From positions 1 through 39,060 of the forward strand of contig DVMF01000022.1 in NCBI GenBank assembly GCA_018715125.1: DNA of 39,060 nt, in the 5' to 3' direction. Numbering within the stretch: the stretch's first letter is position 1; each line of letters begins with the position of its first letter. Shown piece after piece: positions 30,850 through 37,631 of the stretch. The notes under the pieces are model-generated. The model saw only the letters and a list, made by a program, of their open reading frames with translations. It ran no database searches and was not told where the DNA came from. Source of the DNA: Candidatus Coprousia avicola (GTDB lineage Bacteria > Actinomycetota > Coriobacteriia > Coriobacteriales > Coriobacteriaceae). A program made the translations under genes and the position numbers.

Positions 30850-31614
30850 TCAGTGCATGCGCCGGTAGATCTCGCAGATGCCGCGCAGGGTGAGCTGGCT
30901 GTCCACCGCGTCAAACACATCGGTCGACCCGGCGATAACGGGGGCGAGCCCGCCGGTCGCGATAACCGTCGCGTCTGCGGCGCCCAGCTCGCGCTTGATG
31001 CGCGCGACGAGCCCCTCGGCCATGGCGGCGGTGCCCAGCACGGCGCCCGATTGCACGGCTTCGACGGTGTTGGCGCCAATCGCGTGGGCGGGCGCCTCAA
31101 GCGGCACGCTCGAGAGGCGCGCCGCGCGGCTGACCAGTGCATCCATCGAGATGCGCAGTCCCGGGGCAATGGCGCCGCCAATGTAGTAGCCATCGTCGTC
31201 GACGACGTCGATGTTGGTCGCTGTGCCAAAGTCGACCACGATCGCCGGCGCGCCGTAGTATTTGACGGCGGCGGTCGCGTTGGCGATGCGGTCGGCGCCA
31301 ACCTCGGCGGGGTTCTCTGCGCGCACGCGCGTGACGGCGGCGGTGTCGGGGCCCACCACCACGGCCCGCGCGCTCAGGCGCTCTGCCACGCGCCGCCAGG
31401 CGCGGTTGAGCTCGGGCACCACGCCCGCAAACGCCACGGCATCGACCGCGTCGAGCGTCATGTCGTACATACGGAAGTAGCCGTGCAGGCGAACATGCAG
31501 CTCATCGGCGGTAAAAGAGCGGTCGGTGGGCATGCGCCAGGAGTGGACGAGCTCCTCTCCGTCAAAGAGTCCGAGCGCCGTCTGCGTGTTGCCCATATCG
31601 ATGGCGAGTAGCAT
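30850..31614 (-). CDS. coaX: Type III pantothenate kinase
   Basis: The 254-residue enzyme phosphorylates pantothenate, the first step of coenzyme A synthesis. Family motifs of the ASKHA fold are LLAIDMGNTQTALGLF at the N-terminus, GADRIANATAA, IVVDFGTATNIDVVD and GGAIAPGLRISMDAL. The ATG at 31614 is preceded by GGAGGGG; the frame upstream is open but has no similarity to CoaX. It diverges from ccmE, and the two presumed -10 boxes overlap at 31679-31688. Confidence 0.96.
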   Translation of the reverse strand: MLLAIDMGNTQTALGLFDGEELVHSWRMPTDRSFTADELHVRLHGYFRMYDMTLDAVDAVAFAGVVPELNRAWRRVAERLSARAVVVGPDTAAVTRVRAENPAEVGADRIANATAAVKYYGAPAIVVDFGTATNIDVVDDDGYYIGGAIAPGLRISMDALVSRAARLSSVPLEAPAHAIGANTVEAVQSGAVLGTAAMAEGLVARIKRELGAADATVIATGGLAPVIAGSTDVFDAVDSQLTLRGICEIYRRMH

Positions 31615-31678
31615 TGCCCCTCCGCGTTTCAGGTTCATTTTTGCCAAACGTGCGATTACGTGGCGGTCTTCCGCGCCC

Positions 31679-31726: not shown

Positions 31727-32410
31727 ATGAACAAAAAAGCCAAGCGCCGCCTTGTTGTTGCGGGCGGCATCATCGTTATCGCGATGCTTGTGATCGTGGC
31801 TATTGCGGGCGCGGGTGGCGCGGCGTCGTCGCTCACCATCGCCGACGTCCTCTCGGGTGAGTACGAGGGCCAAAAGGTTCAGGTTTCGGGCTCGGTCGTC
31901 GCGGACTCGCTCACAAGCGAGGGCTCGCGCGCCACGTTTGAGATCCAGCCCGAGGAGGGCTCCACCGATGCGGCGTCCGCTCCGCTGACCGTCTCGTATG
32001 ACGGCGCGCTTCCCGCGACGTTTGGCACCGGGGTCGTGGCCATCTGCACGGGCACCATGGAGGACGGGGTGCTGAGCGCAACCGAGCTCGTCACCAAGTG
32101 CCCGTCAAAATATGAGAGCGCCGAGGGGTCGCTGACCGTCAAGGGCCTGCTCGACCAGGCGGACTCGCTTACGGGCGAGGCCGCCAAGGTGTGCGGCTAC
32201 GTGCGCGGCGACGTGCTCGCCGTCAACGCGGCCGAGGGCTATCGCTTCACGCTCGAGAGCCAGGGTGCGACTGTCAACGTGCTGTGGGACGGCGGTCTTG
32301 ACGAGGCGGTGACCGACGGAGTGGCGCTCGTGGTCGCGGGAACGCTCAACGCCGACGGCACGTTTACGGCGTCCGAGCAGCCCGCCATCGACGAGGCGGT
32401 AACCGAGTAG
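31727..32410 (+). CDS. ccmE: Cytochrome c maturation protein CcmE, CxxxY type, with second OB-like domain
   Basis: The 227-residue protein has an N-terminal membrane anchor (about 8-30) and a CcmE OB-fold (about 35-130) with LTVSYDGALPATFGTGVVAICTG. CcmE is the periplasm-side haem chaperone that receives haem from CcmC and passes it to CcmF. The haem-binding site, usually HxxxY, here reads CPSKY (Cys125, Tyr129), the variant known from Desulfovibrio and some archaea. A second segment (about 135-217, VKVCGYVRGDVLA-like start, FTLESQGATVNVLWDGG, VVAGTLNADGTFTASE) repeats the OB pattern but without a CxxxY end. The ATG at 31727 follows GGAG. It is the first gene of the ccm operon. Confidence 0.85.
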   Translation: MNKKAKRRLVVAGGIIVIAMLVIVAIAGAGGAASSLTIADVLSGEYEGQKVQVSGSVVADSLTSEGSRATFEIQPEEGSTDAASAPLTVSYDGALPATFGTGVVAICTGTMEDGVLSATELVTKCPSKYESAEGSLTVKGLLDQADSLTGEAAKVCGYVRGDVLAVNAAEGYRFTLESQGATVNVLWDGGLDEAVTDGVALVVAGTLNADGTFTASEQPAIDEAVTE

Positions 32411-32421
32411 ACGAGCCACGC

Positions 32422-32455
32422 GGGCTGGGGGTGTGACGCCTCCAGCCCTTTGTGT
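32422..32455 (+). terminator. Attenuator-like hairpin between ccmE and ccmF
   Basis: GGGCTGGGGG pairs with CCTCCAGCCC (32422-32431 with 32439-32448, one G-U) and TTTGTGTT follows. It is a weak terminator within the operon and could set a higher level of ccmE. Confidence 0.45.
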
Positions 32456-32486
32456 TGCCGAGGGCATGATGAGGAGATTCCACTAG

Positions 32487-34637
32487 ATGAGTTCTTTGGG
32501 CACGATCATTCAGATTCTGGCACTTATCGCCACCATTCCGGCGATGGTCACCTTGATGGCGAGCGTCGCCGTCGCTCGCCGCGGGCGCGCGCAGCAGGCA
32601 AGCACGCTCGCCAACGTGGGCTTTCTGCTGGTATTTGCCAATACGCTGCTGCTCACGCTCTGCGTCGGCATCATCCTGGTGTGCTTCCTGACCGAAAACA
32701 TGACGCTCTCGTACGTCGCCATGAACTTCCCCGAGACCGACAGCGCGCTCAAGCCGCTCTATCAGGTGGCGGGCGTGTGGGCGGGCCGCCAGGGCTCGCT
32801 TCTCTTCTGGACGTGGCTCATCTCGCTCTTCGCTGCGGCGACCGCATGGCGCCGCATGCGCCAGACCGACGCCCTCACGTGCGCCGCCCTTGCCGTGGTC
32901 GAGCTCGTCATTATGCTCTTCACCTGCGCGATGGTGCTCTCTGACGCCAACAACGCCTTCATCGCCACCCCGGCGCAGTACCTCAATGCAGACGGCGCGC
33001 TGGTGGCGGGCGCCTCTACGGGCATGAACCCGCTTCTGCTCCACTGGGCGATGGTCCTGCATCCGCCGGCGACCTTCATCGGCTACGCCGGCTGCACCGT
33101 CCCCTTCGCCTACGCCATCGCCGCGCTCATCTCGGGCGACCTTTCCGCGCGCTGGGTCGAGCACGCCGACCGCGTGGCGGTCTTCAGCTTCATCTTCCTC
33201 ACCATCGGCATGGTGCTCGGCGCGGTCTGGGCGTACGTGGTGCTCGGCTGGGGCGGCTTCTGGGCGTGGGATGCGGTGGAGAACGCGAGCTTCATGAGCT
33301 GGCTCACCGCCATCGCCATGATTCACAGCTTCACCCTCTACCGCCGTCGCGGCGTCTTTCGCCGCTGGAGCCTCTTTGCGGCGACCATCACCTTCATCTT
33401 TGTGGTGCTCGGTACGTTCATCACCCGCTCCGGCCTCGTGCAGTCCGTGCATGCGTTTGCCGAGGACCCTGTTTCCACCTACTTCTTCCTCGGCATCATG
33501 ATCTCGGCGGGCCTCGCGTTCCTGCTGCTTATGCTCTATCGCTCGGCAGCGCTCACCGAGGAGGACGAGATCGAGTCGCTCGCCTCTAAAAACGGCTCGT
33601 ACTATCTCACGAACCTCGTGTGCATCGTGGGTGCCTGCCTCGTGGCGTACCTCACCGTGTCGAGCGCGCTGCCGAGCTGGCTGCCGCTTGGCGGACAGGT
33701 GGTCTCGGCGGGCGTCTACAACGCGGTCGCCCGCCCCGCGACGGCGCTTTTTGGCCTGCTTATGGCCGTGTGTCCGCTGCTTGGCTGGCGCAAGACCGAC
33801 GGAGCTGCCTTCTGGCGGAACTTCCGCGTGCCGCTCATCGTGGGCGCCGTGGTGTTCGTGGCGCTCGAGGTGTTCTTCTTCGTCGACCTCGTGCCCGCCT
33901 ACGACGCCACCGTGGCGGCGGGGGGCGACGCCGCGGCAACCCTTGCCGAGCAGGGGCCGCGTCTCTACTACCTCGCTGTTGCCGAGGTCTCCCTCGTGGC
34001 GGCGGCGCTCCTGTTCGCATCGTCTGCCTACCTGCTCGGCCGCGGCGTGCGCGCCCGCGCATCCCGTGGAGAGAATCCGGCCCAAGCCGTCGTCAACCTC
34101 TTCCGTCATTCGCCGGCGCAGGCGGGCGGCTACCTCGCCCACCTCGGGTGCGCCATCGCGCTCGTGGGCCTCGTGGGTTCGGGCATGTTTGTGCAGGAGC
34201 AGACGGTCAACCTCGCGGCGGAGGAAGGCGCCCATGCAACCGTGGGCGGCTACGCCCTCACGGTCACGGGTATCGAGGACGCGTTTGACGCCGAGGACGA
34301 CCGCGTGATGACGATCGAGCTCGCGGTGGGCCGTGCAGCGGCTGACGGCGAGCCGGACGAGGCGGCGGGCACCATCGGCACCCTCAGCCCCGCCATCGAG
34401 GTCTCGGCGGCAACGCAGCAGCAGACGCTCCACGCGAGCGTCCTCACGTTCCCCACGGAGGACCTCTTTGTGGCGTTCCAGGGTCTCAATGCCGACGGCT
34501 CGCTTTCGCTGTCCGTCAAAGTGAACCCGCTTATCCTCTGTAACTGGATCGGTGGCGTCCTCTGCATCGCGGGCATCGTGCTCGCCGTGGTGCCGCGCCG
34601 CGCCACGCCGCTTCTGGCGGCTGATGAGCGTGGCTAG
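32487..34637 (+). CDS. ccmF: Cytochrome c maturation haem lyase CcmF
   Basis: The 716-residue polytopic membrane protein is the haem lyase that joins haem to CxxCH motifs of apocytochromes. It has many transmembrane segments and the tryptophan-rich WWD signature region GWGGFWAWDAVENASFMSWL, flanked by conserved stretches (AGVWAGRQGSLLFWTWLIS, HPPATFIGYAG). A large external loop at about 560-690 precedes the last helix. The usual partners CcmH and CcmG are absent from the cluster, as in variant Ccm systems. GAGGAGA precedes the ATG at 32487 by about ten bases. Its last 14 bases overlap ccmA. Confidence 0.95.
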   Translation: MSSLGTIIQILALIATIPAMVTLMASVAVARRGRAQQASTLANVGFLLVFANTLLLTLCVGIILVCFLTENMTLSYVAMNFPETDSALKPLYQVAGVWAGRQGSLLFWTWLISLFAAATAWRRMRQTDALTCAALAVVELVIMLFTCAMVLSDANNAFIATPAQYLNADGALVAGASTGMNPLLLHWAMVLHPPATFIGYAGCTVPFAYAIAALISGDLSARWVEHADRVAVFSFIFLTIGMVLGAVWAYVVLGWGGFWAWDAVENASFMSWLTAIAMIHSFTLYRRRGVFRRWSLFAATITFIFVVLGTFITRSGLVQSVHAFAEDPVSTYFFLGIMISAGLAFLLLMLYRSAALTEEDEIESLASKNGSYYLTNLVCIVGACLVAYLTVSSALPSWLPLGGQVVSAGVYNAVARPATALFGLLMAVCPLLGWRKTDGAAFWRNFRVPLIVGAVVFVALEVFFFVDLVPAYDATVAAGGDAAATLAEQGPRLYYLAVAEVSLVAAALLFASSAYLLGRGVRARASRGENPAQAVVNLFRHSPAQAGGYLAHLGCAIALVGLVGSGMFVQEQTVNLAAEEGAHATVGGYALTVTGIEDAFDAEDDRVMTIELAVGRAAADGEPDEAAGTIGTLSPAIEVSAATQQQTLHASVLTFPTEDLFVAFQGLNADGSLSLSVKVNPLILCNWIGGVLCIAGIVLAVVPRRATPLLAADERG

Positions 34638-35418
34638 CGCAATCCGGGGGCAAGGCTCTTCCGCCGCTACGGCACCCGCCGCGACGGACCCCTCCGCGCC
34701 TCTGGCCGTAAGCGCACGCGGCCTCACCAAGCGCTTTGGTGAGCGGTGCGCGCTCGACGGCGTCGACCTCGCCGTTCCCGCGGGGGCCTTCGTCTCCATC
34801 TTTGGCCCCAACGGCGCCGGTAAGACAACGCTTTTGCGTCAGCTTGCGCTTCTCGCCCGGCCGACGGCGGGCACGCTCGCTATGCTTGGCGTCGACGCGC
34901 TCGAGGAGCCCGACGCCCTGCGCCCGCGCATAGGCCTCATCAGCCACCGCTCGATGCTGTACGGCGACCTCTCCGCCGAGGAGAACCTCGTCTTCTTCTC
35001 CTCCCTCTACCGCGGCGCGCCCGATCGCGCCCGCATCGACGAGCTCCTGCGCTTGGTGGAGCTCGACCATCGCCGCCATGATCCGGTGCGCACGTACTCG
35101 CGCGGCATGCAGCAGCGCCTCTCCATCGCGCGCGCTCTGGTGAACGACCCCGACCTCGTGCTTCTCGACGAGCCCTATTCCGGTCTCGACCCGCATGCGG
35201 CGGAGCTGTTCGACGACCTCATCGCCCGAGCCCGCGCCGAGCGGGCTCACCGCACCTTTATCATGGTGAGTCACGATCTCGATAAGGGCTTCGCGCTCTG
35301 CAGCCACGTCCTCATCCTCGCGCGCGGCCAGGTCATCCTGATGGCGGAGAAAGAGGGCCTCGATCGCGATGCGTTTCGCGAGCTCTACTTGGCGACCGTT
35401 GGCATGGGGGTGGCATAA
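34624..35418 (+). CDS. ccmA: Cytochrome c maturation ABC ATPase CcmA
   Basis: The 264-residue ATPase works with CcmB to release holo-CcmE from CcmC. Motifs are Walker A GPNGAGKTT, Q-loop region ISHRSMLYG, signature YSRGMQQR, Walker B LVLLDEPYSGLD and the switch histidine in VSHDL. The first 30 residues are a non-conserved Ala/Ser-rich head. The ATG at 34624 overlaps the ccmF stop, so translation is probably coupled; the ribosome site (GGCGG) is weak. The ccmB start lies one base after its stop. Confidence 0.94.
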   Translation: MSVASAIRGQGSSAATAPAATDPSAPLAVSARGLTKRFGERCALDGVDLAVPAGAFVSIFGPNGAGKTTLLRQLALLARPTAGTLAMLGVDALEEPDALRPRIGLISHRSMLYGDLSAEENLVFFSSLYRGAPDRARIDELLRLVELDHRRHDPVRTYSRGMQQRLSIARALVNDPDLVLLDEPYSGLDPHAAELFDDLIARARAERAHRTFIMVSHDLDKGFALCSHVLILARGQVILMAEKEGLDRDAFRELYLATVGMGVA

Positions 35419-35419
35419 G

Positions 35420-36151
35420 ATGGCACCGCAACCGCACCGCGCCGCGCCGGCGCGCCCGAGCACCTTCGCGCAGTACCGCGCACTTCTAGCCAAAGACCTG
35501 CGCCAAGAGGTCCGCACCCGCGAGATGCTCACCTCGATGGTGGTGTACGCGCTGCTGGTGCTCACGGTCTACGGCGCCGCGCTCGCACAGGTGGGCGACG
35601 CGATAGAGGTCGTCGCCTTTGCGGGCGGCCTTCTCTGGGCCCTTATTGTGTTCACCAGCCTGTTGGGGCTCAATCGCAGCTTTGCGCACGAGACGGAGTC
35701 GGGCTGCCTCGAGGGCATCCTGCTCGCGCCCGTCGACCGCGCGGTGATCTTTCTTGCCAAGGCGACGGCCAACCTGATATTTCTTGCCGTGGTCGAGTGC
35801 ATCACGGTTCCGCTATTCTTCCTGTTCTTCCTATCCGGCGCCGAGCTCGCCGCCACCACGCCGCTTATTGTCTTGCCGCTTGTGGTGGGGACCGTCGGCG
35901 TCGCCGGCGTCGGCACGCTACTCGCAACGATGACCATCGACACGCGTGGCCGCGACGTGCTGCTGGCCATCCTCCTCATTCCGGTGATCTTCCCGTTGCT
36001 GTACGCGTGCGTCTCGGCCACCTCGGTCGCCTTTATGGGGGTCGCGGGCACCCTCGGTACGTTTTGGACCTCGCTTGCCATGGCGGCTGCCTATGACGTG
36101 GTGATGATCGCGGCCGCGTGGGGCCTGTACGCCTTTGCGGTCGAGGGCTGA
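35420..36151 (+). CDS. ccmB: Cytochrome c maturation permease CcmB
   Basis: The 243-residue protein has about six transmembrane segments and is the membrane partner of CcmA. Typical CcmB stretches are LLAKDLRQEVRTREMLTSM near the N-terminus, LNRSFAHETESGCLEGILLAPVDRAVIFLAK and LLAILLIPVIFPLLYA. It starts one base after the ccmA stop, with GGGGGTGG as ribosome site. A 124-base gap to ccmC follows; a TACTAT element at 36223-36228 could be an internal -10 but has no clear -35. Confidence 0.93.
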   Translation: MAPQPHRAAPARPSTFAQYRALLAKDLRQEVRTREMLTSMVVYALLVLTVYGAALAQVGDAIEVVAFAGGLLWALIVFTSLLGLNRSFAHETESGCLEGILLAPVDRAVIFLAKATANLIFLAVVECITVPLFFLFFLSGAELAATTPLIVLPLVVGTVGVAGVGTLLATMTIDTRGRDVLLAILLIPVIFPLLYACVSATSVAFMGVAGTLGTFWTSLAMAAAYDVVMIAAAWGLYAFAVEG

Positions 36152-36275
36152 TGCAAGCGCGCGGGCGGGATGCAGAAGGTCGCGCGCAAGTCGGGCGTCT
36201 GGCGCCCTCGGCGGCAGATTCCGCTACTATAGAGGCATGTGTTGAACGCGGATAACTTTAGGGAAAGGGGATCCG

Positions 36276-37247
36276 TTGGATAGAGACGATTCGACCCGCG
36301 CCGCCGCGCGCCCGGCGCTTTGGGACCGCTGCGTCCCGTTTGCGCTGGTGGCGGGCACGCTGCTCGTTATCGCCGGCGTGGTCTGGACGTTTACCCTCGC
36401 GCCGTTCGCGCAGGGCGCGACGCTCTCCGAGCCGGCGGTCATCGCGGGCCAGCAGATCACCACCAAGCTGCTCCTCAGTCAGAAGATCTTTTATTTGCAC
36501 GTGCCCGTCGCCGTCGCCTCATTCGCCGTCATGGCGTTCGCCGCGTTTTGGGCCGTGCGCTTTTTGATGACGGGGGAGCGCCGCTACGACATCAAGTCCA
36601 AGACCGCTATGGAAGTCACGCTCGTTTTTGTGGTCGCGACCATGATTTCGGGCGACTTGTGGACGCGTTTCGAGTGGGGTGTCTGGTGGACGTGGGAACC
36701 GCGTCTCACCACCTATTTCATCCTCATGCTGCTCGTCATCGGCTACTTCATCCTGCGTAACGCGATGGAGGACCCCGAGCGCCGCGCGCGCTTTGCCGCC
36801 GTGTTTGGCATCGTGGCCTTTGTAGATGCGCCCATTTCGTTCATGATCACGCGCTTGGTGCCGAGCTCCGTGCACCCGGTGGTGTTCCGTACCGATAGCG
36901 GCCTGCCGCCGATGATGCTCATCCCGTTTCTGCTGGGGCTCTTTGGCATGCTGCTCGTCGCGTTTGCCCTTACGCGCATCGCCCTGCGCGTCAATACCGA
37001 CGCTGCCGAGGTGGAGGAGCTGAAAGAGCGGCTCGAGGAGCAGGATGCTTGGCGCGAGCGCGCTGCGGCCGATGAGGCGCTCGAGCGCCTGAGGGCTGCC
37101 GGCGCCAAGCTCAGCGGCTCGCGTCCCGCCGACGCCCCCGTCCCCGATGCGACACATACCCCGGAGGTCGTAGGTTCAAATCCCGCGGGCATGTCCCCGT
37201 CCCATGATGCCGCCGACCCCTCTACCTCGTCCTCTAAGGAGGCCTAA
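36276..37247 (+). CDS. ccmC: Cytochrome c maturation protein CcmC with extended tail
   Basis: CcmC loads haem on CcmE. The 323-residue protein has six transmembrane segments (to about 240), the WWD motif EWGVWWTWEPRLTTYFIL, and the two haem-ligand histidines in FYLHVPVAVAS and VPSSVHPVVFR that flank it. E. coli CcmC is about 245 residues; here a hydrophilic tail of about 80 follows, first a charged coiled-coil-like stretch (VEELKERLEEQDAW), then low-complexity sequence containing THTPEVVGSNPAGMS, encoded by a tRNA-derived fragment at 37155-37186. The start is the TTG at 36276, behind AAAGGGGATCC. CcmD follows four bases after the stop. Confidence 0.94.
   Translation: MDRDDSTRAAARPALWDRCVPFALVAGTLLVIAGVVWTFTLAPFAQGATLSEPAVIAGQQITTKLLLSQKIFYLHVPVAVASFAVMAFAAFWAVRFLMTGERRYDIKSKTAMEVTLVFVVATMISGDLWTRFEWGVWWTWEPRLTTYFILMLLVIGYFILRNAMEDPERRARFAAVFGIVAFVDAPISFMITRLVPSSVHPVVFRTDSGLPPMMLIPFLLGLFGMLLVAFALTRIALRVNTDAAEVEELKERLEEQDAWRERAAADEALERLRAAGAKLSGSRPADAPVPDATHTPEVVGSNPAGMSPSHDAADPSTSSSKEA
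37155..37186 (+). repeat. tRNA-fMet-derived fragment inside ccmC
   Basis: These 32 bases match 37589-37620 of the initiator tRNA gene at 30 positions: anticodon CAT, 3' side of the anticodon stem, variable loop and most of the T arm. The orientation is the same and the distance is 434 bases. Similarity stops abruptly on both sides. It is translated in frame as part of the CcmC tail. Confidence 0.85.
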
Positions 37248-37250
37248 CCC

Positions 37251-37445
37251 ATGGATGCCATTCTTGCCGAGGTCTATTCGACCGTCTTGCCCGCCGCTCC
37301 GTATGTTATCGGTGCCTACGTTGGAATTTGGATCGTGCTCGCCGTGTACACGCTTATGCTCTCGCGGCGGTCAAAGCAGACCGCCCGCGACCTCGACGCC
37401 CTCAAGCAGGCGCTCGCCGATCGCGAGGAGAAGCTCGAGCGCTAA
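37251..37445 (+). CDS. ccmD: Cytochrome c maturation protein CcmD
   Basis: The 64-residue protein has one membrane segment (about 15-37, with PYVIGAYVGIWIVLAVYTLML) and a charged C-terminal helix (KQTARDLDALKQALADREEKLER). This is the layout of CcmD, a small membrane protein that helps release holo-CcmE from CcmC. The position directly after ccmC and a strong AAGGAGG site support it. Sequence conservation in this family is low, so the call rests partly on context. It is the last gene of the ccm operon; no classical terminator follows. Confidence 0.85.
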   Translation: MDAILAEVYSTVLPAAPYVIGAYVGIWIVLAVYTLMLSRRSKQTARDLDALKQALADREEKLER

Positions 37446-37554: not shown

Positions 37555-37631
37555 TGCGGGGTGGAGCAGTCTGGTAGCTCGCCGGGCTCATAACCCGGAG
37601 GTCGTAGGTTCAAATCCTGCCCCCGCGACCA
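37555..37631 (+). tRNA. Initiator tRNA-Met (anticodon CAT)
   Basis: The 77-base cloverleaf has the acceptor strands TGCGGGG and CCCCGCG, anticodon loop CTCATAA, variable loop AGGTC and T arm GTAGG-TTCAAAT-CCTGC. The discriminator A and CCA are encoded. Three G-C pairs (GGG/CCC) next to the anticodon loop and a non-Watson-Crick first acceptor pair (T-G) mark it as the initiator. A perfect terminator follows at 37641. Confidence 0.95.

Follow-up and report, generated by a model that had tools for sequence, protein, structure and literature searches.

A System I* cytochrome c maturation operon of Coriobacteriia appears to encode a class-specific, two-domain CcmE

Introduction

The closest described relatives of the locus studied here are the cytochrome c maturation (Ccm) systems termed System I*, which do without CcmH and CcmG, carry a CxxxY motif in the haem chaperone CcmE and were described from Desulfovibrio and archaea (PMC3601427). 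According to that 2011 review, most variant CcmEs have the motif CPSKY, approximately one-third of the bacteria with a variant CcmE keep CcmH, and the Desulfovibrio system, built on a CcmABCDEF core with a cysteine in CcmE and no CcmG or CcmH, is functional. The CcmABCEF system of Methanosarcina acetivorans likewise has a CxxxY CcmE and no CcmH or CcmI, requires the CcmE cysteine and works without CcmG and CcmH (PMC9084895). A naturally rearranged chaperone bears on how System I attaches haem without CcmG and CcmH, and allows the function of CcmE after loading to be probed directly.

Here we analyse a ccm locus in a 39,060-nucleotide stretch of Candidatus Coprousia avicola DNA (the window), together with its 2.42-Mb source genome (96.6% complete) and genome samples of the class Coriobacteriia and the phylum Actinomycetota. 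The locus shares with the Desulfovibrio and Methanosarcina systems the cysteine-type CcmE and the lack of CcmH; it has a CcmD and a single-chain CcmF, whereas archaea are without CcmD and CcmF of Methanosarcina is split. The structurally solved Desulfovibrio CcmE construct 2KCT (94 residues) matches the first domain of the window's CcmE only, which has two OB domains. The two-domain CcmE appears to be a class-specific variant of a system that is itself already known, and neither this CcmE nor a Ccm system in Collinsella was described in the open-access literature searched.

Results and discussion

A six-gene ccm operon with conserved key residues

The genes ccmE, ccmF, ccmA, ccmB, ccmC and ccmD lie next to each other on the plus strand at 31727-37445 (Table 1), the start of ccmA overlapping the end of ccmF. 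This is the arrangement that the original prediction had read, and Pfam names CcmA, CcmB, CcmC, CcmE and CcmF in it; CcmD falls below the Pfam cut-off and is called because its position after ccmC is conserved, a CcmD relative being found by BLAST behind ccmC in most named loci. The closest named relatives are Collinsella-type Coriobacteriaceae (CcmE 83% identical to that of Collinsella sp. An307). The divergent neighbour coaX marks the operon site in the window's family and is outside the Ccm system; of the 80 named loci, three were too short upstream to judge, and among the 77 usable ones coaX adjoins ccmE in 14 by a rule-based count.

Table 1 Features of the ccm locus and its neighbours (window coordinates)
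Feature	Position	Strand	Evidence and remarks
coaX, type III pantothenate kinase (divergent neighbour)	30850..31644	-	Pfam Pan_kinase 4.5e-62
ccmE	31727..32410	+	Pfam CcmE E 2.7e-26, two stretches; membrane helix at residues 3-28, OB domain 1 ending in CPSKY, OB domain 2
CPSKY motif in VTKCPSKY with Cys125, predicted covalent haem site	32099..32113	+	sequence
Second CcmE-type OB domain, 98 aa, no haem motif	32114..32407	+	Pfam CcmE E 1.7e-8
ccmF, haem lyase, 716 aa	32487..34637	+	Pfam Cytochrom_C_asm 1.5e-30 and CcmF_C 2.2e-19
ccmA, ABC ATPase	34624..35418	+	Pfam ABC_tran 8.2e-30; ATG at 34624
ccmB	35420..36151	+	Pfam CcmB 1.7e-26
ccmC	36276..37247	+	Pfam Cytochrom_C_asm 6.2e-23; TTG start assumed
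ccmD, 64 aa	37251..37445	+	Pfam CcmD E 0.0047, below cut-off; position after ccmC conserved
tRNA-Met (right-hand neighbour, outside the system)	37555..37631	+	ARAGORN

Alignments across Coriobacteriia show that the tryptophans of the CcmF WWD motif and His192, His280, His322 and His552 are kept in all 69 CcmFs, and His75 and His200 of CcmC in all 63 CcmCs. On the basis of the E. coli proteins, we take these residues to be the functional ligands. Their class-wide retention, together with the presence of all six core genes, supports a working System I*. The apparent loss of ccmF in Collinsella vaginalis (L053) was not counted as real, the contig having undetermined bases at that place. A His-Trp pair at CcmF residues 186-187 (33042-33047; LLHWAMVLHPP), just before the conserved histidine of HPP, is invariant in the same 69 sequences, all from Coriobacteriia.

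The cysteine motif and the absence of CcmH and CcmG

Cys125 stands in CPSKY in place of the usual histidine, as had been claimed and as can be read directly from the sequence. The CPSKY motif is invariant in 31 of 31 aligned CcmEs, and CPS[KR]Y, followed by the second domain, occurs in these proteins and in all 99 further loci examined, comprising 80 named loci found in part through the motif itself and 19 found independently of it. By analogy with Desulfovibrio and Methanosarcina, haem would be bound covalently at Cys125.

The motif alone is ordinary, since in other Actinomycetota the haem position is Cys in 17 and His in 13 of 30 sampled CcmE loci, and a plasmid of Metabacillus sp. B2-18 (Bacillus-type) carries an operon that likewise has the order E-F-(..)-A-B-C-D and a CPSKY CcmE. 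Unlike the window's operon, this one has CcmH and a single-domain CcmE of 153 aa. Because Metabacillus combines CPSKY with CcmH, and the 2011 review puts the share of CcmH keepers at about one-third, the CxxxY motif and the loss of CcmH are separate traits.

Genome-wide searches found no CcmH in the source genome and no CcmG above cut-off (PF08534), so that the absence of both genes, first noted for the locus, extends to the genome, and neither turned up elsewhere in it. The best PF08534 match, a sub-threshold thioredoxin ORF, looks cytoplasmic and was rejected as CcmG. Matches to PF01578 are limited to CcmF and CcmC, which leaves no CcsA and makes System II unlikely. Across the class, 219 of 396 genomes contain CcmE, and in none of the 396 does CcmH exceed its cut-off (12 have sub-cut-off matches at E <= 0.01); the loss of CcmH is thus a class trait and not an assembly gap. 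The oddness for the lineage that the first reading had implied does not hold, given that operon, motif and CcmH absence are all class-wide. By gene content and motif the operon is a System I*, in agreement with the proposed kinship to the CcmG- and CcmH-less cysteine systems of Desulfovibrio and archaea, and what is new in it is the predicted CcmE architecture.

As a side observation, two genomes from a single order-mate genus have weak PF03918 matches inside giant ORFs of about 75 kb (24,922 and 24,860 codons), at loci L036 (G036:C1 near 912897) and L042 (G254:C112 near 1050536).

A pentahaem cytochrome as candidate customer

The source genome has one match to PF14537, a 226-aa protein (G000:C8:17483-18163). 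It has a membrane helix at its N-terminus and carries five haem motifs, in the order CX3CH, CX2CH, CX4CH, CX2CH and CX2CH. A membrane-anchored multihaem c-type cytochrome is thus encoded, and the c-type cytochromes that the original prediction expected are borne out, although not its view that they would be unusual for the group. The customer it had suggested, NrfA, is absent: PF02335 gave a single, spurious match (E 0.378) in the recF region, and a search for the NapC/NrfH family (PF03264) likewise found nothing in this genome. CxxCH motifs show no genome-wide excess (117 against 138 in the control), and close same-frame clusters, among the 100 of these 117 places that were listed, are limited to the pentahaem cytochrome itself and to a pair on contig C54; none of the ORFs listed for the latter contains CxxCH. 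The genome could hold single-haem cytochromes besides the pentahaem protein.

Directly upstream of the pentahaem gene lies a 751-aa aldehyde oxidoreductase (AFOR_N 1.2e-62, AFOR_C 2.4e-31) and, also upstream, a ferredoxin-like subunit with TRRGFV near its N-terminus, the three genes spanning L128:6467-10163 (G000:C8:14467-18163). We take TRRGFV to be a twin-arginine (Tat) signal. In their subunit content, a large subunit (WorL) with a Tat-signal ferredoxin subunit (WorS), the two upstream genes resemble the Class V tungsten oxidoreductases (WOR, clade WOR41), which have been described from Collinsella and other Coriobacteria (PMC13328260). The available text of that report mentions no haem subunit for Coriobacteria, whereas here the pentahaem gene adjoins.

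A pentahaem-type cytochrome occurs in 30 of 65 genomes of the window's family, and the oxidoreductase adjoins it in all 30 loci. Among the 61 family genomes sampled for both genes, the cytochrome accompanies CcmE in 27 of 27 cases and is found in 1 of 34 genomes without CcmE, a pairing that gives a Fisher p of 1.8e-16 with relatedness ignored, the genomes not being phylogenetically independent. The lone exception, G348, has the cytochrome without CcmE in a genome that is 81% complete; the 61 exclude G398 and G399 (cytochrome present) and G396 and G397 (cytochrome absent). A second, more distant cytochrome was found in G021, G066 and G256. Class-wide, 214 genomes have both CcmE and PF14537, 5 have CcmE only, 15 the cytochrome only and 162 neither.

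From the computed co-occurrence and gene adjacency we infer a link between the operon and the oxidoreductase cytochrome, which stands as a prediction. The membrane-anchored pentahaem cytochrome would be the main, perhaps the only, customer of the operon in the source species, and would relay electrons between the membrane and the Tat-exported tungsten-type aldehyde oxidoreductase. In a family usually called fermentative, this near-perfect pairing suggests that Collinsella-type gut bacteria have an electron chain based on a tungsten enzyme. One might instead suppose that in the source species the operon works in exporting or trafficking haem and not in cytochrome maturation, given that just one multihaem cytochrome was found there and that pleiotropic ccm roles are reported in proteobacteria (PMC3884852). 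We regard this as highly improbable, as the lyase CcmF keeps all four key histidines and the distribution of CcmE coincides almost completely with that of the cytochrome.

Elsewhere in the class, too, haem proteins are encoded beside ccm genes. In 28 of the 77 usable named loci, an ORF with at least three CxxCH motifs has its end no more than 1.2 kb upstream of ccmE, and six haem proteins near ccm genes were identified by Pfam as four NrfA (two directly upstream of ccmE and two one gene further) and two PF14537 proteins. At the named Eggerthellales-type loci (L063-L116), ccmEFABCD is often preceded by nrfA together with a gene for an nrfH-like cytochrome; the window's family differs in having coaX as the neighbour of ccmE. 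The Cgr1 cytochrome of Eggerthella was not matured in foreign hosts, for which incompatible maturation factors were suggested (PMC5953540), and the present finding may bear on that failure.

A second, haem-free domain in CcmE

The gene and motif first assigned to CcmE stand, with one correction: Pfam and profile comparisons find two CcmE domains instead of one. The second alone scores 35.1 bits against a cut-off of 24.6 and matches Pfam CcmE in 31 of 31 relatives, and a profile comparison of the two domains gives a probability of 99.1% (E 1.8e-18, 85 columns). Canonical CcmE has one OB domain with the motif near the C-terminus; here the 98-aa domain starts right after the motif, where CcmEs of other classes and Metabacillus with a readable motif have a tail of 3-31 residues. 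AlphaFold2 models the protein as a membrane helix followed by two confident beta domains (mean pLDDT 89.5), and domain 2 alone as an OB-like fold (pLDDT 81.2). In structure searches CcmE structures rank first for the whole protein; for domain 2 alone general OB proteins come first and CcmE (8ce8_E) is at rank 8, so the case for its origin rests on the sequence profiles rather than the fold search. On these profiles, CcmE is the product of an internal tandem duplication and its second OB domain is CcmE-derived.

The arrangement is nearly universal among CcmE-bearing Coriobacteriia. Two or more CcmE matches were found in 214 of the 219 genomes and a single match in five (G091, G131, G133, G149 and G309). 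In the phylum sample, CcmE is present in 171 of 396 Actinomycetota genomes, of which 25 are Coriobacteriia, all with two matches each, and 146 are others, with one match in 134 and two in 12. Ten of these 12 have their two matches on separate contigs or in ORFs that differ in length, and the ORF listed for G687, at 177 aa, could not accommodate both domains as well as a membrane helix; leaving G472 aside, the 146 genomes hold no resolvable two-domain case. Furthermore, a domain-1 tree of 66 rows, which has few columns and was used for the grouping of Coriobacteriia only, places their 31 proteins in one group with support of 98/100. The second domain thus seems to mark one clade and to have been kept since its origin.

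Possible roles of the second domain

The analysis shows gene content, motif, duplication, selection, co-occurrence and gene adjacency directly, and on this basis we consider it probable that the locus is a working cysteine-type System I* operon, with a pentahaem cytochrome as its putative customer and a putative docking role for the second domain of CcmE. On the outer side of the membrane, CcmABCD would load CcmE with haem at Cys125; CcmF would take the haem from CcmE and attach it to apocytochromes without CcmG or CcmH. Domain 2, replacing the flexible tail, would be a module at which CcmF, the apocytochrome or both are docked or positioned. A tentative proposal for Coriobacteriia at large is that CcmE pairs a haem-bearing OB domain with a haem-free copy that docks CcmF or the apocytochrome, and that this may let a six-protein system without CcmG, CcmH and CcmI fill cytochromes with unusual CX3CH and CX4CH sites, the pentahaem partner of a periplasmic tungsten oxidoreductase being one example. 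Such a rearranged CcmE is informative for the role of the chaperone after loading because its second domain can be removed cleanly.

The main rival to a docking role is that domain 2 is a passive remnant of the duplication, serving as a spacer or stabiliser but not taking part in the transfer of haem. This is a possible, if not a favoured, explanation: the haem motif has been lost, [CH]xxx[YF] occurring within domain 2 in 0 of 81 proteins, and the domain is less conserved than domain 1, with only R44 and G76 (domain numbering) invariant. The domain is nevertheless present in all 31 aligned proteins and the 99 further loci, with no truncated copy seen among them, and its long retention in the clade is likewise at odds with a passive part. 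Furthermore, dN is lower than dS in nine of nine comparisons with close relatives, which indicates that domain 2 is maintained by purifying selection, similar to that on domain 1.

Domain 2 could also partly replace the missing CcmH and CcmI, holding the apocytochrome or reducing its cysteines. It does occur in a class without CcmH, and in Rhodobacter CcmE is reported to bind apocytochrome and CcmI (PMC3884852). We think this rather unlikely, as no conserved cysteine pair was found in domain 2 of the 31 aligned CcmEs and the domain therefore cannot copy the redox chemistry of CcmH. Desulfovibrio and archaea, moreover, do without CcmH, and their CcmE is not known to have more than a single domain. 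A docking role for domain 2 is the reading we prefer.

Tandem ccmE genes in other Actinomycetota

At three loci from other Actinomycetota families (L183, L184 and L190, in G661, G741 and G652), two separate, adjacent ccmE genes lie upstream of ccmF; each of the two ORFs has a CPxxY motif, and the more upstream one is the divergent copy. Since they are separate ORFs, both with motifs and in this order, they were rejected as the source of the duplication in Coriobacteriia, and they resemble a parallel case in which the duplicated genes did not fuse.
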